DNA from: Desulfobacterales bacterium
Lineage (GTDB): Bacteria > Desulfobacterota > Desulfobacteria > Desulfobacterales > UBA11574
NCBI GenBank assembly: GCA_022340885.1
Contig: JAJDND010000080.1
Location: 1 to 64,000, forward strand
Reading direction: 5' to 3'
Length of the DNA stretch: 64,000 nucleotides
Below the pieces are notes generated by a model. The model made no database searches. It was not told the origin of the DNA and saw only the letters and a program-made list of their open reading frames with translations. This document shows positions 3,693-42,898 of the stretch, in pieces. The first letter of the stretch is position 1. Each line of letters opens with the position of its first letter. Made by a program: the position numbers and the translations under genes.

Positions 3693-3724
3693 GTTTTTCC
3701 TCCTATGGTCGACCCCTTCTGACG

Positions 3725-21289: not shown

Positions 21290-22049
21290 ACATTTGTTGG
21301 CGCGGGCTATTTTAGTCGTTGCGCTGTTGGGCATTTGGTCGTGTGCGCCGAATCTCGCGGTTCAAAAAAAACAGGAAGAGGCTTCCAGAAATCTCGGGGA
21401 AGCATATTATCAGCGCGGAAATTATACTGCGGCGTTGAGAGAGTTTCTAAAGGCCGAGTCCCTTTACGCGGACGATCCTTTTCTTCAAAACGATCTCGGG
21501 CTGGCTTATAAAGCCAAAAAACAACCGGATCTTGCCATCAAGCATTTTAACAAGGCCCTTAAGCTCAAGCCGGATTATGCACCGGCTATAAATAATTTGG
21601 GGACGGCCTATCTTGAAAAAGGCGACTGGGATACCGCCATAACGTATTTCAAATCGGTTTCAAAAAACCTGCTCTACACCACGCCACATTTGCCCCTGGC
21701 CAATCTGGGATGGGCGTACTACAATAAAAAAGAATATCATCTTGCGGTAAAATACTACCGTGAAGCCCTTGATTTAAAACCTAAATTTATCGTCGCCATG
21801 CGCGGTCTCGGCCTGACGTATATGGCCATGGGAAAGCTCGATGCCGCTGCCGAAATACTCGAAAGCGCCGTGAAGGATTATCCGGATGCCGACCTTTTAT
21901 ATATAGATCTCGGCAAGCTCTACACTGAATCAGGCGAAGAAGAAAAAGCGCTGGCAGCCTATCAAAAAGTGATCGAACTCGCACCCGGCAGTGAATTGGC
22001 CGCAAAGGCGAGCCAGGCGATTCAAGACATAAAAAGGTACCGTTATTGA
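21282..22049 (+). CDS. TPR lipoprotein, PilF-like
   Basis: A 255-residue protein with a signal peptide and probable lipobox Cys near residue 21 (LGIWSC), followed by about six tetratricopeptide repeats (e.g. YYQRGNYTAALREF, NNLGTAYLEKGDWDTAI). TPR lipoproteins of this kind (PilF/PilW) are pilotins for the PilQ secretin. Here pilQ is the convergent neighbour, with the two stops overlapping by 7 bases, which supports a pilotin role. That role is inference; generic TPR scaffolding is possible. Confidence 0.75.
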   Translation: MSRHLLARAILVVALLGIWSCAPNLAVQKKQEEASRNLGEAYYQRGNYTAALREFLKAESLYADDPFLQNDLGLAYKAKKQPDLAIKHFNKALKLKPDYAPAINNLGTAYLEKGDWDTAITYFKSVSKNLLYTTPHLPLANLGWAYYNKKEYHLAVKYYREALDLKPKFIVAMRGLGLTYMAMGKLDAAAEILESAVKDYPDADLLYIDLGKLYTESGEEEKALAAYQKVIELAPGSELAAKASQAIQDIKRYRY

Positions 22050-24364
22050 CCGGCGCCAGCAGGTGAGTGCGAACTGACAAGATCGGCCTGTTGGAGCTGA
22101 ACCACCCTGGGTGTGATAAATATCAACAGTTCATCGGTCTGGTTTTCTTTGGAGTCTGTTTTAAAGAGCCAACCGAGAACCGGGATTTTTCTTAAATACG
22201 GAAGCCCTTTTTCGTTTAAATCCTTCCTTGTTTTTCGAATTCCGCCGATCACAATGGTATCGCCGTCATTCACCAGCAGTTCGGTGTAGGCTTCCTTGGT
22301 GGTGAAGGATATCTGATTATTGATAACAGCGCCGATTTCGTTGTTTTTGACAACGACTTTCATGGTTACCCGGTCATCGGGGGTAATATGGGGTGTCACT
22401 TCCAGTTCAAGGGCGATGTCTTTGAACTCGGTGGTGGTATTTCCGTCCGCATCCAGCTTGTTGTACGGATAGGCCAAACCCTGTTTGATTTTGGCCGGTT
22501 TGTTGTCGAGGGTTAAGATTTTCGGAGCGGAAATGATTTTGACGTTTCCTTCGGATTCCGATGCTGACAGCTTTGCATCGATGATCTTGAATGTATTCCC
22601 CGCCACCCGCGAAAATGAAATTCCGATGGCGCCGAGGCTGCTGGACGGCGGGTTTGTTGCACTCATATCATATCCCAGGGTTCCTCCCAAACTGCCATCT
22701 GTTCGGGTTCCGGTGATTGACCATTGGGTGCCGATTTCCCTGGAAAAGGTATCCGTGGCTTCAACGATCCGGGCTTCGATCATGACCTGGGGTGTCACCT
22801 TGTCGATCTTTTTGACGATTTGCTTGGCTTCCCTAATTTTTTCCGGAATGTCCGTTATGATAATTTGGTTGTTTCGGGCATCGACGGTGACATTGCCCCG
22901 TCCTTTGGTCACGGTGATATGGGGTAACACGTCACTTTTTGCGTTGGCATAATTGATGGGTATGTATGCCGTTGTCATCGGTTCAAGGGTTTTTTTCTGT
23001 TGTTCCAGCTTTTGCTTTGCGGCGAGGGTCGCCTGTCTTTCCTCTTGTTCGGCTCTTAGTGTTTTAAGGGTGGCGATTCGGATGATATCGCCTTCGTAAA
23101 CCATTCCGAGTCCATTCATTCTCAAAACCAGATCAAGCACTTGATCCCATGGAACCGGCTTTTCAAAGCTTAACGTCACTTTTCCGGTTACGTCTTTGTC
23201 GATGGCGAAGTTCTTTCCGCTGACATCCATTAAAATACGAAATACGTTTTTGATGTCTGTTTCGTAAAAATTGAGAGCGATTTTTTCGCCGGAAAATTTT
23301 CCGGTTTTGACAAACATTTTTTTCTGTTCAACGGTTTCCGCCCCTTCTAAGGGCTTTGCTTCTGTAATCGTCCGGGACAGCACTTTTTCCCATGGCGGAA
23401 GGTTGGCTTTATCTAAAGGTTTTGGCGGAATCGTGGATGCGGCAAAATGGAACAGGATCAGATTGTCGGTATGTTCGATATAATATGGGACCGACTGTCG
23501 GAGCTCGATAATAAATCCCGCCTTGTCCTTCATGGCGGATGTCTGAAACGGTATGATTCGGTTGATGGCGCTTCGAAAGCGCGTTGTGATCAAGGGCCGC
23601 TGCCGGTAATCTGGAAGCTTTGAATGATAAAGATAAAGCAACAATTTTTTGTCATTGATTTTTTCAAGTTTGTATTTTGCGGGAATGGTGGTTCCGATAA
23701 TAATGGTCGATTTACCGCCTTTTTCGCTGGAAAAGTCAATACGGTTCACCCACCCCGATTTATCGCCGCCGGCCTGTAATTGAGAGGACGCGGTGGGTGA
23801 TGATTTGACCGGCAAGCTCTTATTTTCGGAAGAAACCGACGACGTTGGATTGCTTTGCATTTTGGCACTTGAGTTTTGGGCAATTTTCAGTGCCGGTTGG
23901 TCAACATCGGGTTTTTTAAAAGATACAACAAGGCCCTCATCGTTGCGATTCACTTCATACGAAACATCTTTTTTCAATAAAATTTCGACACGGCTGGTCT
24001 CTTTTTTGGTTTTTAATGCGGATGTATGAATTGAAGCGATAATATCACTTTCAGGACGATAGTTTTCGTCGATGTCACCAATGGCTGTTTCGGGGAAATA
24101 GAGCATCACACCCGGCGGAGATGGCTGCTTGACGGACGTATAGGTCAGCATTTGATTCCCGCTGATCCGCACGACGCTTGCATTCGGATCCTCGCTCGTG
24201 CTGATTTGGGTGATAAGTTTTGGCTGGGAAGATTCAACAGCAGGTTCCTTAACTTCTTTAACGGACTTGGTGTTGGATGCGCACCCGGTAAACATGAGCA
24301 ACAGTATCACCCCAAAAAGCGTGACGGCGTTCATTTTTAACAGTGTATTGATCTTACGATTCAT
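22043..24364 (-). CDS. pilQ: Type IV pilus secretin PilQ
   Basis: A 773-residue outer-membrane secretin that forms the exit pore for type IV pili. After a lipoprotein-like signal (FTGCAS near 28) come AMIN-type domains, an STN/N0 domain (~360-430), an N1 domain (~470-540) and the C-terminal secretin barrel with IKQGLAYPY, VNDGDTIVIGG and RKIPVLGWLFK. It is the last gene of the xre-pilMNOPQ operon. Two bases separate its ATG from the pilP stop. Confidence 0.95.
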   Translation of the reverse strand: MNRKINTLLKMNAVTLFGVILLLMFTGCASNTKSVKEVKEPAVESSQPKLITQISTSEDPNASVVRISGNQMLTYTSVKQPSPPGVMLYFPETAIGDIDENYRPESDIIASIHTSALKTKKETSRVEILLKKDVSYEVNRNDEGLVVSFKKPDVDQPALKIAQNSSAKMQSNPTSSVSSENKSLPVKSSPTASSQLQAGGDKSGWVNRIDFSSEKGGKSTIIIGTTIPAKYKLEKINDKKLLLYLYHSKLPDYRQRPLITTRFRSAINRIIPFQTSAMKDKAGFIIELRQSVPYYIEHTDNLILFHFAASTIPPKPLDKANLPPWEKVLSRTITEAKPLEGAETVEQKKMFVKTGKFSGEKIALNFYETDIKNVFRILMDVSGKNFAIDKDVTGKVTLSFEKPVPWDQVLDLVLRMNGLGMVYEGDIIRIATLKTLRAEQEERQATLAAKQKLEQQKKTLEPMTTAYIPINYANAKSDVLPHITVTKGRGNVTVDARNNQIIITDIPEKIREAKQIVKKIDKVTPQVMIEARIVEATDTFSREIGTQWSITGTRTDGSLGGTLGYDMSATNPPSSSLGAIGISFSRVAGNTFKIIDAKLSASESEGNVKIISAPKILTLDNKPAKIKQGLAYPYNKLDADGNTTTEFKDIALELEVTPHITPDDRVTMKVVVKNNEIGAVINNQISFTTKEAYTELLVNDGDTIVIGGIRKTRKDLNEKGLPYLRKIPVLGWLFKTDSKENQTDELLIFITPRVVQLQQADLVSSHSPAGAGQ

Positions 24365-24365
24365 A

Positions 24366-24974
24366 CTATTCTCCAGGAGGTTTCTGAAGTTTAAGTGTTT
24401 TCTTTATGGTGACAGCTTTGCCGTAAATATCTTCGCTCTTTTCTTCGATAATGATCCTGTCATCTAATATACGTTCGACTTTACCGGATTGTGTTCCGAT
24501 ATAGGTCCCTTTTTTAACAATATATCCTTTCCCCGACGCTTCCTGGACCAAAGCACGGTTTCCGCTCGGTGCGCGTATGATGCCCACGAGCGTCAACTGG
24601 CTGAGATTCAGCTTTTCAAGCGGTGTAAGGGGTTTTCGTCGCTTTATTTTCGTTTTTGAGGTAACCGAGACGTTTTCTTTTTTGAAAAGGGGTTCAAAAG
24701 GATCCAGCTGCCCTTCGGGATTATATAAGGGGATCGTTTCAAATGGCTGCGCATTGACCGACACTGAAGCTTTGGCGGCTTGTTTTGAAAGATCGGCTCT
24801 TTTTTGTAGTTTGGGTACAGGGGGTTTTATGGGGGCTTTTTTTTCTGCAGTGGTGATTTTTTTTGTAATTTGTTTTGAGGCTGTTGGGGGTTCGGATTTT
24901 TTGCATCCGCCCATCAAAAGCAATGATAAGATAATACAAAGGATGCCGCGGCTAAATATAAGATGTTTATTCAT
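24366..24974 (-). CDS. pilP: Type IV pilus lipoprotein PilP
   Basis: An inner-membrane lipoprotein that links PilNO to PilQ. I prefer the ATG at 24974 because it places a short lipoprotein signal with lipobox LLMGGC directly at the N-terminus. An upstream ATG at 25007 adds 11 residues and cannot be excluded; neither has a strong ribosome site. A Pro/Lys-rich linker precedes the conserved beta domain (LTLVGIIRAPSGNRALVQ to EDIYGKAVTI). About 202 residues, normal for PilP. Confidence 0.88.
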   Translation of the reverse strand: MNKHLIFSRGILCIILSLLLMGGCKKSEPPTASKQITKKITTAEKKAPIKPPVPKLQKRADLSKQAAKASVSVNAQPFETIPLYNPEGQLDPFEPLFKKENVSVTSKTKIKRRKPLTPLEKLNLSQLTLVGIIRAPSGNRALVQEASGKGYIVKKGTYIGTQSGKVERILDDRIIIEEKSEDIYGKAVTIKKTLKLQKPPGE

Positions 24975-25012
24975 GATCCAAGGTTTTGATTGAATGTCTT
25001 TAATCATGAAGC

Positions 25013-25645
25013 TTATTTACGCTTCTTTTGCTTTGTTTGTTTTTTGGGCTTTGCTTCAATGAACCGGTACGTAATGGCTGTACAGGATGTCGTTAATTCT
25101 TCGGCCCCTTTTGCGGCGCGCATTTTGATATCGTCTATATTTACGATTCTGTTCAACCGTGACACTTTATCGAAAAACAGGGCAACATTTTGATAGCTTC
25201 CTTTCACCGTGATCGATACGGGAATTTCAGCATAAAAGTCTTTGTCGCGTTCGGGCAACGGCCTGAACAGTAAAATGTCCAGTCCGGCGTCCCGTCCGGA
25301 TTGTGAAATACTGGACAGTAAAGAGGGAATTTCTTGTTTTTCAGGCAGCTTTTTCGTAACAACTTTAAATTCCAATTTGGCATTTTCCAGTTTTTCCTGA
25401 TACGATTTAAGCTGGCTGGCTTTCTGCTGTGCCACACTCAATTTCTTTTCCAACGAATTGCTTTGCTTCTTCAGCGAATCGATTTGACTGAGTTTCGGTA
25501 AAAAGGAAAAATAAAGGAAAGGCCCCACAAGCAATACAAAGACTCCCAAGCACAATAAAATCCGGTAAAGTTTGGATAGCTTTCCGATCTTATCGGTGGT
25601 TTGAAAAATCCAGTTTGATATTTTTGATGTATCGATTTTATCCAT
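25013..25645 (-). CDS. pilO: Type IV pilus assembly protein PilO
   Basis: A 210-residue bitopic inner-membrane protein: short cytoplasmic N-terminus, membrane helix ~28-48, a periplasmic coiled coil (SLKKQSNSLEKKLSVAQQ), and a ferredoxin-like domain (SSISQSGRDAGLDILLFRPLPE). It pairs with PilN in the alignment complex. The ATG shares its last base with the pilN stop. It ends in a Lys-rich tail. Confidence 0.93.
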   Translation of the reverse strand: MDKIDTSKISNWIFQTTDKIGKLSKLYRILLCLGVFVLLVGPFLYFSFLPKLSQIDSLKKQSNSLEKKLSVAQQKASQLKSYQEKLENAKLEFKVVTKKLPEKQEIPSLLSSISQSGRDAGLDILLFRPLPERDKDFYAEIPVSITVKGSYQNVALFFDKVSRLNRIVNIDDIKMRAAKGAEELTTSCTAITYRFIEAKPKKQTKQKKRK

Positions 25646-26292
25646 TATATCTTGCCCGGTTTTTTGCCGGCATCATTTTTATCCTTTGATTCGTTCAAAG
25701 AAACCCTGTTACATCCGATATCAAAGTTTTTGAGGTTGAGGTGATTGACAATTTGTTGTTTTATGTTTTTTAGGGTCACATTTTGGTATAGTTTGGAATC
25801 TTCCAGCCGGCTCATAAAATCAGCAATGGTTTTATTATCCAAGGCAATCCCGTGGATACTGATATTGTCGCCATTGGCCTCAAAACTGGTGAACCACAAC
25901 CGTTTAACCGGCTTGTTTTCGCTGCTTGCCGATGCTCCTGACGGTGAACCGGGAGTCTTTTCGGCCACTAGTTTCGACATATTTTCAAGAAGCATTACCG
26001 AAGCCCTTCGATTTTTTTCGATGTTCCGGATCACTTCTGTTTTTTGCTTTAATTTTTCGAGGGCCTTTTTTATTTGATCCACTTTTTTGGATTTTGTTTC
26101 AGCCTGGGCCAATAATGTTTTTGTATTTTTTATTTTGGTATTTAGGGTCGTAACTGTATGGGAGAATCGGACATTAATCACAATCAAAATCGCCAAAACC
26201 ACAAAAAACACAAAAAGAAAAACATTGATCTGTCTGAGAATATTTTCTTTTTTCCGTTCTTCACGGTAAGGCAGCAGATTGATTCGTATCAT
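25645..26292 (-). CDS. pilN: Type IV pilus assembly protein PilN
   Basis: A 215-residue bitopic protein. The N-terminal INLLPYREERK motif, which docks onto PilM, is at residues 4-14, followed by a membrane helix (~23-43), a coiled coil and a periplasmic domain. Its ATG overlaps the pilM TGA by 4 bases. Confidence 0.93.
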   Translation of the reverse strand: MIRINLLPYREERKKENILRQINVFLFVFFVVLAILIVINVRFSHTVTTLNTKIKNTKTLLAQAETKSKKVDQIKKALEKLKQKTEVIRNIEKNRRASVMLLENMSKLVAEKTPGSPSGASASSENKPVKRLWFTSFEANGDNISIHGIALDNKTIADFMSRLEDSKLYQNVTLKNIKQQIVNHLNLKNFDIGCNRVSLNESKDKNDAGKKPGKI

Positions 26293-27347
26293 TTGTCACC
26301 CAATTTTCGTGTTGCAAGTCCCATACAGATCGCGGATTGAGGACCGATTTTTTCAAGATATGCAGCATCAAACCGCTGGCTGTCGATTTCAATTGCTTGA
26401 AACGGATTAACAACTTCGACTTCGGCGGATGTTTCGGCAGCCAGAAGTTTCCTGAATGCTTTAATTTTGGCTCCGCCACCGCTGAGCACAATCCTGGTTA
26501 TTTGTTCTGCAGGATAGGTCGATAAAAAAAAGTCGAGGGCGCGTTTGATTTCGACACACCAATCCGACACCACAGTTGAAACGATATCTTTTAAATCATC
26601 GGCAGACATTGCATCTGATACGCGACCCAGCTTGATCGCTTCCGATTCCTCAATTGTGCAACCGATGGTGGACGCGATTTTATCATTAATCTGATCGCAT
26701 CCCAAAGAAACATCGCGCATAAATTCGCTGATATTATTTTTTAAAATATTTAAAGAGGTTTTGCTGGCCCCGATGTCTATCAAGGCAATGTTTTCGTTTT
26801 CAGAAGTGGAGTACGACTCAAAAATATTTTGGAGCGCAAAGGCATCGACATCGATGATTCGTGGCCGGAGTTTCGCCGATTGCACGAGATCGATATATTC
26901 GTTAATCATCTCCTTTTTGGCGGCGACCAGAAGCACATTCATCTGATTGGGGTTGTGTTCGCTTTCTCCAAGTATCTGGAAGTCCAGATTAACTTCGCTG
27001 ATGTCGAACGGGATATATTGTTCTGCTTCAAAATGGATGGATTCCTGCAATTCATCTTCCGTCATGGTCTGGACATTGATTTTTTTAACGATAACCGAAT
27101 ACCCGCCTATGGAGATCGCAACATTTTTTTCTTTGAGTTTTGAAGTTTTGAAAAGTTCGCGGATGTAACCGGCTACGGTCTCGGGTTCTTTGATAGAGCC
27201 TTCTTCAATAAGACCGGGTTCAATGTTGACGGTGTTGAAGGTTTTTAGGGCCAATCCGGATTTCCCGTCGATAATTTCGGCGAGTTTTATGGTTCTGGAT
27301 CCGATGTCAAGGCCGGCCGGCCGGCTCTTTTTCGAAAACAAGTTCAT
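26289..27347 (-). CDS. pilM: Type IV pilus assembly protein PilM
   Basis: A 352-residue cytoplasmic actin-like ATPase of the FtsA/PilM fold. It has GLDIGSRTIKLAEI at the N-terminus (phosphate 1), ALIDIGASKTSLNI (phosphate 2) and VLSGGGAKIKAF (adenosine motif). It binds the PilN N-terminus and anchors the assembly platform. Five bases separate it from the upstream HTH gene. Confidence 0.95.
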   Translation of the reverse strand: MNLFSKKSRPAGLDIGSRTIKLAEIIDGKSGLALKTFNTVNIEPGLIEEGSIKEPETVAGYIRELFKTSKLKEKNVAISIGGYSVIVKKINVQTMTEDELQESIHFEAEQYIPFDISEVNLDFQILGESEHNPNQMNVLLVAAKKEMINEYIDLVQSAKLRPRIIDVDAFALQNIFESYSTSENENIALIDIGASKTSLNILKNNISEFMRDVSLGCDQINDKIASTIGCTIEESEAIKLGRVSDAMSADDLKDIVSTVVSDWCVEIKRALDFFLSTYPAEQITRIVLSGGGAKIKAFRKLLAAETSAEVEVVNPFQAIEIDSQRFDAAYLEKIGPQSAICMGLATRKLGDK

Positions 27348-27993: not shown

Positions 27994-29418
27994 ATGAAAC
28001 ACCACGCCACAGAAGAAAAGGTAAAGCCGTTCAGGTTGGTCAAATACTTTACCTTTACGAGCCTGATCCTCATATTTATCGGCACGTTGATTTTTTCTTT
28101 GCTCAACACGCACTGGGCAAAGACCATGCAGGAAAAAAAAAGCGAAGAGTACGCCCGCGTTCTGATCGAAAATCTCAACCATCAGGTGTTCTTACAGTTC
28201 ATCATACCGGTTGCGTTAAAATTTGGAAAGATTCAACTGAGCAACGAAAATCAGTTTGAACGGATGGATAAAGTCGTTAAAAGCACGCTTCACAGTTTTA
28301 AGATCGATATGGTCAATATCTACGACATGGACAACACGATTTCATACAGCTTCAACCATTCGATTATCGGCAAAGAAAATGCCGGGGGCAAAGGATATAC
28401 AGATGCGCTTAAGGGGAAGTACACATCAACTCTCATACAAAACGGCAATTGGTTTGAGATTTTGCTCGGATTCCCCCAAGACAGCAGATTAGTTACATTC
28501 GCCCCTTTGCGCGCGGAGCAGCCGCTATCCCGGATTTCCGGTCCGGTTCTCGGAGTGGTAGAAATTGTGCAGGACTTGACCCAGGATTATAAAGAAATTT
28601 TCGATTTTCAGATTCGGGTTATCATTACCGCTTCGGTTGTAATGGGCGGCCTTTTTTTGGTGCTGCTTTTAGTGGTGAAACGGGGGGAAGGCATCATTGA
28701 AAAGCGGGCTCAGGAGAGACTCAAACTCATCGAGCGGTTAAACCGCGCCGAGCACTTATCCACATTGGGTGAAATGGTGGCGGGAATTTCCCATGAAATT
28801 CGAAATCCGTTGGGTATCATAAAAAGCTCGTCCGAACTGTTAAAGAAAAAAATGGTCAAATTCGATCCTTCCAATTCCATTCCGGATATCATTATTGAAG
28901 AATCCATTAGACTGAATAATATTATTACCGATTTTTTAAATTTTGCAAAACCCAAAAGTCCGAACCTTTCAGCCTGTAAGATAGAGGACATTCTTGAAAA
29001 AAACATCACTTTTTTGACATCGCAGATCAAACAGGAAGGGTACTCCGTCGAGAAGCATTATGATGAAAATCTTCCGGAAATTGCCGCCGATGCGGATATG
29101 CTTTACCAGGCGTTTTTGAACATCCTGATCAACGCAATGCAGGCAATGCCGGGCGGCGGCATCATTCAGGTAAGCATTCATTCGGCTGATCATACTGTAA
29201 AGATCGTCATTGAAGACGAAGGTGAAGGCATTCCTAAAGATCTGCTGGAAAAGATATGGGACCCTTTTTTTACAACAAAAGCCAAAGGAACCGGCCTGGG
29301 GCTGGGCATCGTGAAAAACATTATTGAATCCCATGAGGGAAAAGTCAGCATCATCAATAAACCGAATGCCGGATCCCGCGTCACGATCGCTTTGCCGGTC
29401 AATCAAAGAGCATCGTAA
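27994..29418 (+). CDS. Membrane sensor histidine kinase (NtrB/PilS/ZraS-like)
   Basis: A 474-residue kinase. Membrane helix 1 spans ~16-38, a periplasmic sensor domain follows to ~205, and helix 2 lies at ~208-230. The HisKA domain has the phospho-acceptor His in GISHEIRNPLG near 264, and the HATPase has DEGEGIP and GTGLGLGIV. The sensor domain has no family I recognise. The gene overlaps the downstream sigma-54 response regulator (TAATG), so they are partners. The adjacent palindromes, sigma-54 promoter and small RNA are the likely output. The signal is unknown. Confidence 0.9.
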   Translation: MKHHATEEKVKPFRLVKYFTFTSLILIFIGTLIFSLLNTHWAKTMQEKKSEEYARVLIENLNHQVFLQFIIPVALKFGKIQLSNENQFERMDKVVKSTLHSFKIDMVNIYDMDNTISYSFNHSIIGKENAGGKGYTDALKGKYTSTLIQNGNWFEILLGFPQDSRLVTFAPLRAEQPLSRISGPVLGVVEIVQDLTQDYKEIFDFQIRVIITASVVMGGLFLVLLLVVKRGEGIIEKRAQERLKLIERLNRAEHLSTLGEMVAGISHEIRNPLGIIKSSSELLKKKMVKFDPSNSIPDIIIEESIRLNNIITDFLNFAKPKSPNLSACKIEDILEKNITFLTSQIKQEGYSVEKHYDENLPEIAADADMLYQAFLNILINAMQAMPGGGIIQVSIHSADHTVKIVIEDEGEGIPKDLLEKIWDPFFTTKAKGTGLGLGIVKNIIESHEGKVSIINKPNAGSRVTIALPVNQRAS

Positions 29419-30800
29419 TGGAAACCATCCTGATCGTAGATGATGAAAAAAATTATCCGTTGATATTAAGCGCGATCCTCGAAGAGGAAGGATTCGAAAC
29501 ATTCACCGCGAACAGTGGCGGTGAAGCGCTTGATATTCTTTCAAATACAGATATCGACCTGGTGCTGACCGATATGAAGATGCCGTCCATGGACGGTATC
29601 GAACTTTTAGAAAAAATCAAGGCCAAAGATCATGATCTCCCCGTCATTATGATGACCGCCCACGGCACGGTGGATAAGGCTGTTGAAGCCATGCAAAAAG
29701 GAGCTTACAGCTATATTCTCAAGCCTTTTGATAATGATCGACTGATTATATATGTCAACAAGGCGGTGGGTATGTATCGGGTTGTCAAAGAGAACCGACA
29801 GCTTAGGGATGCCGTGGAGTCGAAATACCGTCTCGGAAATATCATCGGAAAAAGTAAGGTGATGCAGGATGTCTTTGAGACCATAAAAAAAGTTGCAACC
29901 GCCAGCGCCACGGTGTTGATCGAAGGCGAAAGCGGCACCGGCAAGGAATTGGTCGCAAAATCAATTCATTTTAACAGCTCGCGACGTGATAAACCGTTTG
30001 TTGCGGTGAACTGCAGCGCGCTCGCCGAAAATTTGCTTGAAAGCGAACTCTTCGGTCATGAAAAAGGCGCGTTTACCGGCGCTGTAACCATGAAAAAAGG
30101 CCGATTTGAGTTGGCGGACAGCGGAACGCTTTTTCTGGACGAAATCGGCGAACTTTCACCCAATCTTCAGGTCAAGCTTTTAAGGGTACTCCAAGACAAA
30201 ATTATTGAAAGAGTCGGTGGCGTTAAGCCGATGTCGGTGGATATTAGAATTATTGCCGCTACCAATAAACGGCTCAAAGATGAAATGCTGAACGGACGGT
30301 TCAGAGAAGACCTTTTTTATCGTTTGAACGTGGTGCACATCGTTCTGCCGGTATTAAAAGAACGCAAAGAAGATTTAGGCCTTTTGGTCGATCATTTTAT
30401 CGGAAAATATAAAGATGAACGAAAGTCCGATATTTTGATTAGCGGTATCGATCCGGAAGTCAAACGTCTGTTTTACGCATACAATTGGCCCGGGAATGTC
30501 CGTGAGCTGGAAAACGTTATCGAAAGGGCGATGGTACTGTGCCAGGGCAGCACGATAAAAGTGTCGGATCTTCCGAAAGAATTTAAAAACAGTATTGATA
30601 ATTCTCTGGATGTTGAAAGTATTCCCGCAGATGCAAAACTGGATGAAACGCTGGCGATGATAGAAAAAATGATGCTCGAAAGAGCGCTGAAGTTAACAAA
30701 CAATGTGCAATCCCAGGCAGCGGAATTGCTGGGAATCGGAAAAAGCGGGCTGAACTGGAAAATAAAAAAATTCAAACTGGAGATTGGTTCAAAAACTTGA
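29418..30800 (+). CDS. Sigma-54-dependent response regulator (NtrC family)
   Basis: A 460-residue regulator: receiver domain (phospho-acceptor Asp 52 in [11 protein letters not shown]), AAA+ domain with Walker A GESGTGKE near 175, the sigma-54-contacting loop GAFTGA intact near 218, and a C-terminal Fis-type HTH ([19 protein letters not shown]). It activates sigma-54 promoters from upstream enhancers. Directly after its stop come two identical palindromes and a sigma-54 promoter, which I take as its own target site. Translationally coupled to the kinase gene. Confidence 0.95.
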
Positions 30801-30865
30801 ACGATAATAGTGGCGGAATCATAGTTAATTATTTCGGATGGTTGTGTTGCTAATTGGGGGTGAGG

Positions 30866-30881
30866 GTTCAAAATTTTGAAC
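30866..30881. promoter_or_regulatory. Palindrome 1, candidate enhancer site
   Basis: GTTCAAAATTTTGAAC is a perfect 16-bp palindrome, identical to the one at 30945. It lies about 240 bases before the predicted sigma-54 start, a normal position for an NtrC-type activator. Confidence 0.65.
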
Positions 30882-30944
30882 AGGATGGAACAGATGCCAA
30901 ATATTAGCAAAATGAATATGTTATGTCATTTGGCCAGGGACGGC

Positions 30945-30960
30945 GTTCAAAATTTTGAAC
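30945..30960. promoter_or_regulatory. Palindrome 2, candidate enhancer site
   Basis: A second exact copy of GTTCAAAATTTTGAAC, 79 bases centre to centre from the first. A half site TTTTGAAC follows at 30963-30970. The T-run directly after it means it could also act as a weak terminator for the regulator mRNA. Confidence 0.65.
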
Positions 30961-31089: not shown

Positions 31090-31107
31090 TTGGCAAGAAA
31101 ATTGCAT
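31090..31107 (+). promoter_or_regulatory. Canonical sigma-54 promoter
   Basis: TTGGCAAGAAAATTGCAT (31090-31107) has GG at 31092-31093 and GC at 31104-31105 with exactly 10 bases between, and the conserved TGGCA and TTGCA blocks. The predicted start is about 31117. It points to the small RNA, as the next gene is on the opposite strand. Confidence 0.8.
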
Positions 31108-31116
31108 AAAACATTT

Positions 31117-31189
31117 TCAAACCTAATAATTTCTTTATCTGTTTTCCTCCTTAATGACCAATGACAAAAGTTCATTGGTCATTTTTTTT
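31117..31189 (+). ncRNA. Candidate sigma-54-dependent small RNA (~70 nt)
   Basis: The predicted transcript begins about 12 bases after the sigma-54 GC element and ends in the T-run of a strong terminator. The 5' part is unstructured and U/C-rich, with UUUUCCUCCUU at 31142-31152. This is complementary to Shine-Dalgarno sequences and sits just before the terminator stem. The 3' part is the terminator hairpin. The layout (two-component pair, enhancer sites, sigma-54 promoter, short terminated RNA) recalls GlmY/GlmZ regulation by GlrKR in enterobacteria, but I see no sequence similarity to them. Exact ends are estimates. Confidence 0.65.
31153..31189 (+). terminator. Strong Rho-independent terminator
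   Basis: AATGACCAATGA (31153-31164) pairs perfectly over 12 bp with TCATTGGTCATT (31172-31183), with a 7-base loop and a run of eight T (31182-31189). The T-run is on the forward strand only, so it ends forward transcripts. The nearest forward gene stops 350 bases earlier, which is why a separate small transcript is likely. Confidence 0.85.
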
Positions 31190-31213
31190 GATTTTTTTCA
31201 GACATCCGGACAA

Positions 31214-31912
31214 CTACGAAATTTTCGCTAGTTTTTCCCTGACAATCTCGGTATATATCGACTCGGGGTAATCGGATAAAATTTTCTTGAATGCAGTAAT
31301 GCTTTTTTCTTTATTTCCAGCAGCGGCATACATCTCGCCCAGATTGAAAAGGGCTTCGTCTTTGACTGGGTAATCCTGAGACGTGGCCACCATTTCAAAA
31401 TAACCCGAAGCGGTGTTGTAATCTTTTTTGGCTTCATAACAATACCCCAGGCCGTTTAAAACGAGATTTTTCAGAAACGGTTCATCGGTAAACTTTGCAA
31501 GCAGCTGATTATAAAGAGTTATTGCTTTATCATAATCCTTGGCGGCATAACACATATCGGCATAATAAAGACGTGCCAGAATGCCTCCCTGCCTTTGTGA
31601 GTAGTTATTGATAATCCGTTCAAAATCCTTTTCGGTGCCTTTTAACGCTTTTTCCGGGCCATCGGCTTTCAGTAATGCCTGATATTTGACGATGCCTTCT
31701 TGAAGCATTGAAAAAGCCTTGTTTTCGGATTTTTTCTGATAATAAAAAAAACCGGCCCCGATAATCAGCAGTATCAAAAAAGCGCCAACGGCACATGAAA
31801 CCTGCACCTTATGAGCTGTGACAAACTCAAAAAGCTTTGTCCAAAATGAGATGAATTCGTCGGGGTTGTTGAGGTCTCTTTTTCGAGACCGGGATACCGA
31901 TTTTCGCGCCAT
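31214..31912 (-). CDS. Membrane-anchored TPR protein (YfgM-like)
   Basis: A 232-residue protein: basic cytoplasmic N-terminus, one membrane helix (~36-56), then TPR-type repeats (ARLYYADMCYAAKDYDKAI, LFNLGEMYAAAGNKEKSI). The layout matches YfgM/ancillary SecYEG translocon proteins, which hold periplasmic chaperone partners. That function is inference. Its ATG overlaps the adenosine kinase stop by one base, so the two are co-transcribed. It ends 24 bases from the small RNA terminator, which faces it. Confidence 0.75.
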   Translation of the reverse strand: MARKSVSRSRKRDLNNPDEFISFWTKLFEFVTAHKVQVSCAVGAFLILLIIGAGFFYYQKKSENKAFSMLQEGIVKYQALLKADGPEKALKGTEKDFERIINNYSQRQGGILARLYYADMCYAAKDYDKAITLYNQLLAKFTDEPFLKNLVLNGLGYCYEAKKDYNTASGYFEMVATSQDYPVKDEALFNLGEMYAAAGNKEKSITAFKKILSDYPESIYTEIVREKLAKIS

Positions 31913-33971: not shown

Positions 33972-36152
33972 TCAGGCGCCGATTATATTTCCCCCCTGAT
34001 ATACCAGAAAAGCCATTATCCATGCAAGCATCGTACTGTAGGAAATGCTGAAAATCATCCATTTCAAAGAAGCCGTCTCCCGCCGGATGGCAGACAATGT
34101 CGCAAGACACGGCATGTACAACAAGACAAAAACCATCATGGCCAGTGCTGCAATCGATGTCATGCCGGAAGAGACAAGCGCGTTTTCAAGGGCTTTCGAA
34201 TCCTTCTTCTGGTCGGCGGCATAAAGAATTCCCATGGTGCTCACGACGATCTCCTTGGCGACAAAACCGGTCAAGAGGGCCACGCTGCCACGCCAGTCGA
34301 TGCCGATGGGCGCAAAAACAGGTTCGATAATCTTGCCGATGCGGCCCATATACGATTTTTCAGCCCTTTCAGCCGCTTGTGATCTTATAATCCTGTCAAC
34401 GGCCAGATCCATCTTCTGTTGCAGGACACTTTTTTCGGCATCCGTGGCGGCAATCATCTGCGCGTGATAGGATCTTTGGACCTGTTCGATTTCCGATGCA
34501 TAATCCTTGGAATATGATATATGCAGCGGAAATGCCGAAAGCGTCCAAACCACGATGGAACCGATAAGAATATAACCGCCCATTTTTTTTAAAAAGATTT
34601 TGCTTCGATCCCACATGTGTATCATCAGGCTTTTGATCATGGGGATTCGGTATGGCGGCAATTCCATGACAAAGGGGGCATCAGCGCCCCTTAAAAGGGT
34701 TGATCTGAAAAGCCGGCCGGTGATGATGGAAAGCACGATGCCCAACAGGTAGATGCAAAAGATCACGGTTCCGGCTTTGGCGCCGAAAAAAGCCCCCGCC
34801 AGAATAATGTAAACCGGAAGCCGGGCCGAACAGGACATAAAGGGCGTAATGAGAATGGTCAGGGTTCGATCTTTTTCGCTCTCCAAAGTCCGGCTGGCCA
34901 TAATGGCCGGAACATTGCACCCGAACCCCATCAACATGGGGATAAAAGATTTGCCGTGAAGACCGATCAGGTGCATGATCTTGTCCATCAGAAATGCGGC
35001 TCTGGCCATATAGCCCGTATCTTCAAACAAAGCGATGCAAAAGAAAAGAATCAGAATATTCGGCAAAAAGATAATGACGCTTCCGACGCCTGCGATCACG
35101 CCCTGGATCAGAAAGTCCTTGAATATATTGTTGGGAAGCGCCTGGGCTAAAAATGACGAAAGGAGTTTTATTCCACTGTCGATCCAGTTCATTGGATAGG
35201 CGCCCAGGGAAAACGTCAATTGGAACATGGCCCAGATAAAAAATATAAAAATCGGAAACCCGACAAACCGGTTGGTCAGGACAAGATCGATGTTTCGAGA
35301 TATATCGACGCGTTGTTTTGTGGAGCTGGCCAGGACCTCCATGATGATCCCGGCGATAAAACCATACCGCTCGTCGGTCATGACGATTTCCGGATCATCA
35401 TCAAACCGATCGATGAGAAAATTACGTTGATTATCGATATCTTCAAGAATTTTTTCGCCGATGTTGCCGGTCTTTTCCAGGATGCGGCTTGTTACGATTT
35501 TATCGTTTTCAAGAAGTTTGATGGCTGTCCAACGAATGTTGTATGGGATGACGCCGGCGTTGTGGTTGCCGATGATCTTTTCAACTTTCGAGATGGCATC
35601 CTCGATGTCTTTACTGTACTTTACCTTTCGTTTTTGGACAGCAGATCGGTCCGACTCTGCCAATGCAATGGCCTGCTCCAAAAGCGTTTCCATGCCCTTG
35701 TTTTTATTGCCGACGGTAAAGACAACGGGCACGGCCAAAAGTTCGGAAAGCTTTCGGTCGTCGATTTTGAGGCCCCGGCTTCGGGCAACATCGGCCATGT
35801 TCAGAGCGAACAATACGCTGCAATCGATTTCCCTTAACTGCGTTGCCAGATAAAGGCTTCGCTCGAGATTGGATGCATCGATGATGTCGATCACCACATC
35901 CGGCCGTTCTTCCAGGATATAATCCCGGGCAACGATTTCTTCTATGGAAAAGGGGGTTAAGCTGTATGTTCCGGGGAGATCGACGATTTTCAGATCGTAA
36001 CCGGCGTGTTTGACGTTACCTTCCTTTTTTTCAACCGTAACGCCGGGCCAGTTTCCGACCTTCTGGCGCGTTCCGGTCAAGTTGTTGAATATGGTGGTTT
36101 TGCCTGAATTCGGGTTGCCTGCGAGGGCTATGGTAAGTTGTTTCGGGGTCAT
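33972..36152 (-). CDS. feoB: Ferrous iron transporter FeoB
   Basis: A 726-residue inner-membrane Fe(II) transporter. The N-terminal G domain has G1 GNPNSGKTTIFN, G3 DLPGTYSL and G4 NMAD; a helical domain (~165-270) follows, then the polytopic membrane region with Gate motifs including MGFGCNVPAIMASRTL. Its ATG overlaps the feoA TGA by 4 bases. Confidence 0.97.
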   Translation of the reverse strand: MTPKQLTIALAGNPNSGKTTIFNNLTGTRQKVGNWPGVTVEKKEGNVKHAGYDLKIVDLPGTYSLTPFSIEEIVARDYILEERPDVVIDIIDASNLERSLYLATQLREIDCSVLFALNMADVARSRGLKIDDRKLSELLAVPVVFTVGNKNKGMETLLEQAIALAESDRSAVQKRKVKYSKDIEDAISKVEKIIGNHNAGVIPYNIRWTAIKLLENDKIVTSRILEKTGNIGEKILEDIDNQRNFLIDRFDDDPEIVMTDERYGFIAGIIMEVLASSTKQRVDISRNIDLVLTNRFVGFPIFIFFIWAMFQLTFSLGAYPMNWIDSGIKLLSSFLAQALPNNIFKDFLIQGVIAGVGSVIIFLPNILILFFCIALFEDTGYMARAAFLMDKIMHLIGLHGKSFIPMLMGFGCNVPAIMASRTLESEKDRTLTILITPFMSCSARLPVYIILAGAFFGAKAGTVIFCIYLLGIVLSIITGRLFRSTLLRGADAPFVMELPPYRIPMIKSLMIHMWDRSKIFLKKMGGYILIGSIVVWTLSAFPLHISYSKDYASEIEQVQRSYHAQMIAATDAEKSVLQQKMDLAVDRIIRSQAAERAEKSYMGRIGKIIEPVFAPIGIDWRGSVALLTGFVAKEIVVSTMGILYAADQKKDSKALENALVSSGMTSIAALAMMVFVLLYMPCLATLSAIRRETASLKWMIFSISYSTMLAWIMAFLVYQGGNIIGA

Positions 36153-36386: not shown

Positions 36387-37067
36387 TCAGGTTCTCACCG
36401 GTTCAACCAATATTTTCTCCGCGAGTCCGCGTCCCAGAACATAGCGATTGTAATCCGCGGCGATGACCATTTGTCCTTTATGGAGGTTGGTCACAATGTC
36501 GATTCGGTCTCCGATCCTCAGCCCCATGGACAAAAGCCGCATACGGGCGCTGGCGCCCCCGGTAAACTCCCTGATTTCCACCTGTTCTCCCTGTTTGGCA
36601 TGAATCAGGGGCATGGGACGAATGTGATCTTTGAGGCAATTGGAACAGATGCCGTAGATTTCCATTTTGTGCTGAAGCATATGAAAATTATGGGCCGCGG
36701 CGATTCGGCCCTGCATTTTTTCGATATGTTCGTCTTTGAACTCATAAATGTTTCGACATTTCGTACAGATCATGTGATCGTGATGATGACCCAAATGCCG
36801 GTGCTCGTAACGCACTTCTCCATTGTCGAATCTGTTTTTCCGGGCAAACCCGAAGCGACACATCAGCTTCAAGGTGTCCCTGACAAAATCGGCCGATAAT
36901 AAGTATCCGTTATCACTAAGGAGTAGAACCAGTTCGCTCACGGTAATGTGACGTTCGGTTTGAAGAAAAACTTCAAGGATCTTGAATCGATCTTCGAATT
37001 CATCGATATTTTCCTGCTGGAACAGTTTTTGAAATTGTTCTTTTTCCCGATGATGAACGCGTTTCAT
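36387..37067 (-). CDS. Fur-family repressor fused to a FeoA domain
   Basis: A 226-residue two-domain protein. Residues ~25-150 are a Fur-type winged HTH and dimerisation domain with the metal-binding HLGHHHDHMIC stretch (91-101), CTKC (101-104) and CSNC (141-144). Residues ~158-222 are a FeoA/SH3-like domain (ARMRLLSMGLRIGDRIDI). This combination is more familiar in DtxR/IdeR regulators than in Fur. It leads feoA-feoB, so it should regulate iron uptake. I chose the ATG at 37067. An open frame continues to 37229 but runs through a MITE-like repeat and is not conserved-looking. Confidence 0.85.
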   Translation of the reverse strand: MKRVHHREKEQFQKLFQQENIDEFEDRFKILEVFLQTERHITVSELVLLLSDNGYLLSADFVRDTLKLMCRFGFARKNRFDNGEVRYEHRHLGHHHDHMICTKCRNIYEFKDEHIEKMQGRIAAAHNFHMLQHKMEIYGICSNCLKDHIRPMPLIHAKQGEQVEIREFTGGASARMRLLSMGLRIGDRIDIVTNLHKGQMVIAADYNRYVLGRGLAEKILVEPVRT

Positions 37068-37108
37068 TTTGATTCCCGTAAAAAGCGACTCGATAAAAAT
37101 ACTTTTAT

Positions 37109-37194
37109 TAGAAGCTATCTCAAAATAATCTTTTGGCCCAAACTCGGCTTCGCCTTGATTTTGAACCAAAATCTTTATTTTGAGATGGCTTCTA
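37109..37194. repeat. MITE-B copy 1 (86 bp)
   Basis: Bounded by TAGAAGCTATCTCAAAAT and ATTTTGAGATGGCTTCTA, a near-perfect 18-bp terminal inverted repeat with TA at both ends. No ORF. It sits 42 bases upstream of the fur-feoA ATG. The longer copy is at 42903. Its ends share TAGAAG and the TTTGA...CTTCTA layout with MITE-A. Confidence 0.8.
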
Positions 37195-37292
37195 GAGCCT
37201 TTAAAAATTACCGCAAGCACCCATGACATTAATGCCTGATCAAAGCGTTGTCAATAAAGGCGAATGCGGAAACGAAACACATAACGCAATAT

Positions 37293-42881: not shown

Positions 42882-42898
42882 CTGGCATGCGCCTTGCT
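42882..42898 (+). promoter_or_regulatory. Sigma-54 promoter of the GcvH-like genes
   Basis: CTGGCATGCGCCTTGCT has GG at 42884-42885 and GC at 42896-42897, exactly 10 bases apart, with TGGCA and TTGC blocks. The predicted start, about 42909, falls inside the MITE-B element that begins at 42903. Confidence 0.75.

Follow-up and report, generated by a model that had tools for sequence, protein, structure and literature searches.

Introduction

Small RNAs of the sigma-E response take part in the control of the cell envelope, pairing with mRNAs for outer-membrane proteins in their 5′ region (PMC1804206, PMC2628432). Other regulatory RNAs are made from sigma-54 promoters: in Vibrio, the NtrC-type regulator LuxO and sigma-54 drive the Qrr RNAs, which are small, repressive and sometimes multicopy (PMC10162802), and GlmY and GlmZ stand under GlrKR (QseEF), combining sigma-54 with an adjacent two-component system (PMC8745638). 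In Desulfovibrio vulgaris, DAP-chip placed a target of two sigma-54 response regulators at an RNA just downstream of each regulator gene, Dv_sRNA2 behind DVU0679 and a noncoding RNA behind DVU0653, with the function of these pairs reported as unknown (PMC3333781, PMC4641369).

Here we describe a locus that joins features of these systems, found in a 64,000-nucleotide stretch of DNA from a Desulfobacterales genome (hereafter the window). In our reading, which we hold with high confidence on comparative evidence throughout, a small RNA produced under a two-component system of the sigma-54/NtrC type would block the translation of porin mRNAs. Like MicA and RybB, and like VrrA of Vibrio cholerae, all under sigma-E, the predicted product is a short trans-acting RNA with a terminator that pairs with the 5′ portion of outer-membrane protein mRNAs; the sigma-E porin RNAs differ in their promoter, which here is replaced by a sigma-54 promoter and an enhancer-binding two-component regulator. 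There is no sequence relation to VrrA (RF01456; 24.5 bits, the cut-off being 50). The combination of an NtrC-type response regulator and a sigma-54 promoter ahead of a small RNA, here read from sequence, recalls Qrr, the target there being instead a regulator mRNA (LitR/HapR/LuxR), and the regulator reaches 390.7 bits against the 800 demanded by the LuxO profile, with no Rfam match to Qrr for the RNA. The parallel with GlmY/GlmZ and GlrKR drawn in a preliminary description of this DNA survives as an analogy of layout and fails as a family assignment: the RNA matches neither family in Rfam, at the gathering threshold or at E≤10, the regulator scores 369 bits against the GlrR cut-off of 763, and the RNA has a single terminator stem, another architecture and another target.

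The D. vulgaris pairs share with this locus a regulator-RNA layout at the level of the phylum, and it is by layout alone that we liken them. A further lead of the same kind, likewise of layout alone, is Pxr of Myxococcus xanthus, a sigma-54-dependent small RNA that adjoins an NtrC-type regulator gene; it serves developmental control, where porin control is proposed here. The LhrC1-5 RNAs carry C/U-rich anti-Shine-Dalgarno seeds and differ in their Gram-positive host, their targets and, to our knowledge, in not being sigma-54 dependent. Pxr controls fruiting-body development, its direct targets being unknown (PMC11928866), and LhrC1-5 of Listeria are two-component-controlled, multicopy RNAs of envelope stress (PMC4132741). 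The RNA would work like the enterobacterial porin RNAs and is built like Qrr; by the Rfam and regulator-profile tests it belongs to neither group. For sulfate reducers and their relatives, a large group of environmental importance, this would provide a concrete post-transcriptional control of outer-membrane permeability, with the pathway, the RNA and the target named, and it suggests a function for the unexplained sigma-54 response-regulator/RNA pairs of Desulfovibrio.

Results and discussion

A predicted small RNA behind a two-component system

The features of the locus are collected in Table 1. The preliminary description had placed a canonical sigma-54 promoter, about 73 noncoding bases and a perfect 12-bp terminator directly behind a kinase and a sigma-54 regulator, with the next gene on the opposite strand, and each of these elements held up on closer analysis. 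Only three TGGCA-N6/7-TTGCW sites occur in the 64 kb, the promoter being one; the other two sigma-54-like sites lie at 42883 (+) and 44253 (−). The RNA sequence begins with UCAAACCUAAUAAUUUCUUUAUCUGUUUUCCUCCUUAAU, 12 bases past the promoter GC. On folding, its 5′ 36 nt are unstructured and are followed by the 12-bp stem (31153-31183) and the T run, with a fold energy at z = −4.5 relative to shuffled sequences, none of which (0/200) was as stable. The best explanation for 31117-31190 is that it encodes a trans-acting, base-pairing small RNA. The U run at the predicted 3′ end would fit a dependence on Hfq, and nothing beyond that.

Table 1. Coordinates of the features of the locus within the window
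Feature	Position	Strand	Basis or remark
Histidine kinase with N-terminal membrane sensor, the regulator's partner	27994..29418	+	HisKA + HATPase_c
NtrC-type response regulator, presumed activator of the RNA	29418..30800	+	Pfam: REC, sigma-54 AAA+, Fis HTH
Degenerate activator site TTCAAAAACTTGAA, putative, overlapping the regulator 3′ end	30788..30801	.	sequence; preferred position near −300 in relatives
Palindromic activator site GTTCAAAATTTTGAAC, putative, about −224 from the −24 element	30866..30881	.	sequence; motif enriched in relatives
Palindromic activator site GTTCAAAATTTTGAAC, putative, about −145	30945..30960	.	sequence; motif enriched in relatives
Sigma-54 promoter TTGGCAAGAAAATTGCAT	31090..31107	+	GG-N10-GC at 31092-31105 (sequence reading: GG 31092-31093, GC 31104-31105, N10 spacer)
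Small RNA, ~74 nt, predicted	31117..31190	+	conserved family, model R1; 5′ end predicted (~31117, ±2)
5′ pairing module AACCUAAUAAUUUC	31120..31133	+	complementary to GAAAUUAUUAGG boxes of porin leaders
Pairing module UUUCUUUAUCUGUUUUCCUCCUUAAU	31130..31155	+	complementary to porin mRNAs at SD, AUG and first codons
Intrinsic terminator, 12-bp stem + T run	31153..31189	+	compensatory changes across relatives
Convergent TPR-protein gene, conserved neighbour outside the unit	31214..31912	−	window genes + related loci

The element lies about 320 nt behind the 3′ end of the regulator gene and might be taken for a mere terminator or 3′ untranslated region of the kinase-regulator operon, or else, from a Shine-Dalgarno sequence and ATG on the reverse strand in most relatives (SD + MKKLLG), for a small gene running the other way. 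We regard these readings as hardly credible. In many genomes the promoter-RNA-terminator unit is not located near the regulator, on which ground we rejected the first; we also rejected the second, as the reverse frame stops after ~6-8 codons in the homologues read and the window and three relatives have lost its ATG (GATAAAG).

By eye, the two-component system also adjoins type IV pilus assembly genes (PilQ secretin and PilP/O/N/M-like; 22043-27347, −). Elsewhere in the window, again by eye only, a gene for a protein with a Fur-type N-terminus and a FeoA-like C-terminus (36387-37229, −) stands upstream of a FeoB-like transporter (33972-36152).

The RNA family in Desulfobacterales

A 121-base stretch around the element matched 34 of 60 related genomes by BLAST, a few of these matches being porin starts and not the RNA gene. 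Among 30 aligned RNAs, the 5′ 36 bases are nearly invariant; the hairpin varies in sequence with its pairing kept, two-sided changes occurring in 11 of the 13 stem pairs with 97% of cells paired, a degree of covariation that none of 500 shuffles reached. R1, a covariance model that covers only the RNA and leaves out the promoter, found the family in 183 of 291 genomes assigned to the order Desulfobacterales by their record titles. At all 36 of these loci that were examined, a TGGCA/TTGCW promoter was present 23-36 bases upstream of the model match, so that the −24/−12 element keeps its distance from the RNA, as befits a sigma-54-dependent small RNA. The promoter-RNA layout first noticed in the window is thus conserved among relatives.

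A pattern scan of named genomes returned 106 stretches, nearly all titled Desulfobacterales, its genera or Deltaproteobacteria, and including Desulfonema magnum, Desulfospira joergensenii, Desulfobacula, Desulfotignum and Desulfatitalea. One copy lies on a contig titled ‘Bacteroidia bacterium’ (JAIOYZ010000004.1), probably a misassigned bin. In several genomes the RNA is present as two or three copies in tandem, Desulfonema magnum having two; at three loci (L124, L015 and G202:C1:56210-57419) we observed the whole promoter-RNA-terminator unit doubled or tripled in tandem with near-identical seeds. In two genomes of one genus (G007 and G016) the seed is altered to CUUCAUCAGUUUUCC, which can fold back on the 5′ AAAACUGAG, possibly as a self-inhibited form; a target matching this altered seed was looked for and none was found.

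Rfam held no family match for the RNA, at the gathering threshold or at a permissive E≤10, and a search of open-access papers found none on this RNA, on porin control by it or on any porin small RNA of Desulfobacterales. The family is absent from Rfam and previously uncatalogued.

Complementarity to the start of porin mRNAs

The reverse complement of the conserved RNA 5′ end, AAGGAGGAAAACAGATGAAGAAATTATTAGGTT, contains a Shine-Dalgarno sequence, a start codon and first codons, and reads AAGGAGGAAAACAG-AUG-AAG-AAA-UUAUUAGGUU, as in outer-membrane porin mRNAs; the complementarity covers these three elements over ~33 nt. Beyond the RNA loci themselves, nearly all matches of the RNA locus in relatives are porin starts (one each in the window's own genome, G000, and in G008, G047, G031 and G013, and two in G012), and the weaker matches are gene starts of exported barrel proteins, Porin_4 or near it. 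G000 has a single Porin_4 gene above the cut-off, the same gene that matches the RNA, and its AlphaFold model is a barrel resembling DcaP, OmpT, OmpF and PorB. Its start forms a duplex of −32.5 kcal/mol with the RNA over a 33-nt stretch.

In a wider ranking in G008, which spans 2.0 of 3.4 Mb (the first 0.8 Mb picked to contain the porin and the later 1.2 Mb target-blind), the porin came first among 2146 genes at −37.2 kcal/mol (mean −11.8, sd 4.0); the best value from 50 shuffled seeds over the first 848 of these genes was −31.0 kcal/mol. Fits were weaker in two other paired genomes (G037, −22.0; G019, −27.5). The RNA is therefore complementary to the 5′ part of outer-membrane protein mRNAs to a degree above background, here and in a second clade described below. 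Porins diverge fast, and Pfam Porin_4 proved too insensitive as a porin finder (4/25), so we used profile A3 instead, which detected porins in 19 of 60 genomes; some RNA-bearing genomes showed no porin of these families.

The preliminary description had read the RNA as a general anti-Shine-Dalgarno repressor that damps many mRNAs through CCUCCUU. The seed does contain this motif, and any strong Shine-Dalgarno sequence pairs with it to some extent (background means of −11.8 to −13.4 kcal/mol). Two further genes also score well, a FadL-type outer-membrane gene of G000 (Toluene_X; −30.1 kcal/mol) and, at rank 2 in G008, a gene for a TrpB-like enzyme (−33.3 kcal/mol); given the latter, the RNA is not strictly specific for envelope genes. 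Against such a general role, the stretch that is conserved and complementary spans ~33 nt, past the Shine-Dalgarno sequence, and the 12 other G000 genes that combine a Shine-Dalgarno sequence with ATGAARAAA reach only −14 to −22.5 kcal/mol, well short of the porin and the FadL-type gene. The HD gene named earlier as an example has a real match (3695-3704), yet its duplex of −18.9 kcal/mol is ordinary among 59 window genes (mean −13.4, sd 3.7). The 5′ tip of the RNA, moreover, matches boxes in the porin leader and not Shine-Dalgarno sequences. We therefore keep pairing with ribosome-binding sites from the earlier reading and consider its general action on many mRNAs improbable, as the long complementarity singles out porins, plus the FadL-type gene.

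Boxes in the porin leader and co-variation with the RNA

The porin leaders of relatives share a layout in which AAAGGAGGTG, ~105 bases upstream, is followed by one to three GAAATTATTAGG boxes and then by CATTAAGGAGGAAAA...ATGAAGAAA. The boxes are complementary to the 5′ tip of the RNA (−17.1 kcal/mol in G000), and G000 contains three copies of the 12-mer GAAATTATTAGG, of which one lies in the RNA gene, one in the porin leader and the third elsewhere. Where the tip changes, the leader can change with it: G031 has CCUGAUAAU in the RNA and ATTATCAGG in the porin leader, both sides altered together, and G030 and G050 have GCC in the RNA and AGGC in the leader. The energies of own and foreign seeds gave no clean separation within the order, because the seeds there are nearly identical.

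With up to three boxes plus the match at the ribosome-binding site, the leaders look sponge-like, and abundant porin mRNA might titrate an RNA whose main target lies elsewhere, or pairing might activate or stabilise it. Pairing directly over the Shine-Dalgarno sequence and AUG would normally block initiation, and no better target than the porin was found among the 2146 G008 genes, so that we judge this very improbable and retain repression of the porin as the preferred reading.

As a separate observation, a conserved, perfect extended Shine-Dalgarno sequence (AAAGGAGGTGA) stands in porin leaders (L326 and others) ~105 nt before the start, far from any start codon; it resembles the 5′ ‘STAB-SD’ stabilisers of mRNAs and might offer the RNA a second contact.

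Activator sites and the regulator

Upstream of the promoter, the window has two perfect copies of the GTTCAAAATTTTGAAC palindrome and a degenerate third, spaced 79 bases apart at distances of about 145, 224 and 303 bp. In relatives the palindrome recurs with similar spacing, near −145, −223 and −300 relative to the promoter. It is 136-fold enriched upstream of the RNA (67 occurrences in 36.8 kb versus 10 in 745 kb elsewhere). Some of the 80 named loci keep the order kinase, regulator, RNA and TPR gene, so that in these the kinase adjoins both the regulator and the RNA, and others have the RNA in unrelated neighbourhoods; many of the copies far from kinase and regulator retain the upstream palindromes. 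Among the 23 genomes whose RNA does not adjoin the regulator, 22 encode a regulator orthologue elsewhere (62-79% identical, paralogues reaching 49% or less).

Enhancer-like sites and an NtrC-type activator, as a sigma-54-dependent small RNA would need, thus accompany the RNA even where the genes are unlinked. From this co-occurrence of palindromes at unlinked copies with a regulator kept elsewhere, we infer that the RNA is driven in trans by this regulator through binding to the palindromes. The tie to the adjacent two-component system proposed earlier is supported.

In two Desulfobacula-type contigs (L170 and L175), ~150 bp ahead of the promoter, the activator palindrome forms part of longer perfect palindromes (48 and 50 bp), which are possibly real or an assembly effect.

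A model for porin control

In the sequence of events that we infer, some signal would trigger the sensor kinase and lead to phosphorylation of the NtrC-type regulator, which would then bind the GTTCAAAATTTTGAAC sites at 30788-30960 and cause the sigma-54 promoter to fire. The 5′ half of the resulting ~74-nt RNA would be single-stranded and antisense to the mRNAs of outer-membrane porins: part of it would pair over the Shine-Dalgarno sequence, the start codon and the first codons, and the 5′ tip could pair with GAAAUUAUUAGG boxes higher in the same leader. Ribosome binding would be blocked and porin synthesis would fall, probably along with that of the FadL-type outer-membrane protein. Transcription of the element, its activation by this particular regulator, the direction of the effect, the signal and any need for Hfq are the conjectural steps of this model.

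The proposed circuit outside the order

A phylum-wide search with R1 gave four weak matches outside the order, three of which (G303, G340 and G404) are probably real, given their position directly behind a regulator orthologue. Regulator orthologues elsewhere in the phylum are 54-61% identical, and behind many of them come a sigma-54 promoter, a short anti-Shine-Dalgarno RNA rich in pyrimidines and a hairpin. These neighbouring RNAs carry different seeds, which is UUUUCUCCCUCCUC in one group of six genomes. Perfect 14-base matches to the complement of UUUUCUCCCUCCUC in these six genomes fell in five RNA genes and at the starts of two other genes, each for a porin-like protein (MKKYWMWVLAATLIVAMAMPALADVNVSGSYRLRG...). 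Among the matches with one mismatch were two more members of the same porin family and, in two genomes, a BBP2 porin, as well as a multihaem cytochrome and many unrelated places; totals for a reversed-pattern control were comparable, and we place weight only on perfect matches and gene-start positions. With the RNA of their own genome, the starts of this porin family reach −34.7 to −41.9 kcal/mol.

Between these distant groups, then, the seed tracks its target. Since RNAs outside the order with another seed again match porins, the circuit seems older than its present seed. This coevolution of seed and target rests on few independent clades, and we lean towards a porin circuit of two-component system, sigma-54 and small RNA spread across the phylum Desulfobacterota, in which the regulator, its sites and the layout would be old and the seed would be rewritten in each clade to follow the porin ribosome-binding sites. 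If true, it would form an independent counterpart of the enterobacterial sigma-E/OmpR porin RNAs, and the joint change of seed and target across distant groups would offer a rare natural test of the coevolution of small RNAs with their targets.

In one genome outside the order (L417; G366:C4:44203), the ribosome-binding site of a multihaem, MtrC-like cytochrome gene is nearly complementary to the RNA of the same genome (−32.0 kcal/mol), hinting at RNA targets in extracellular electron transfer.
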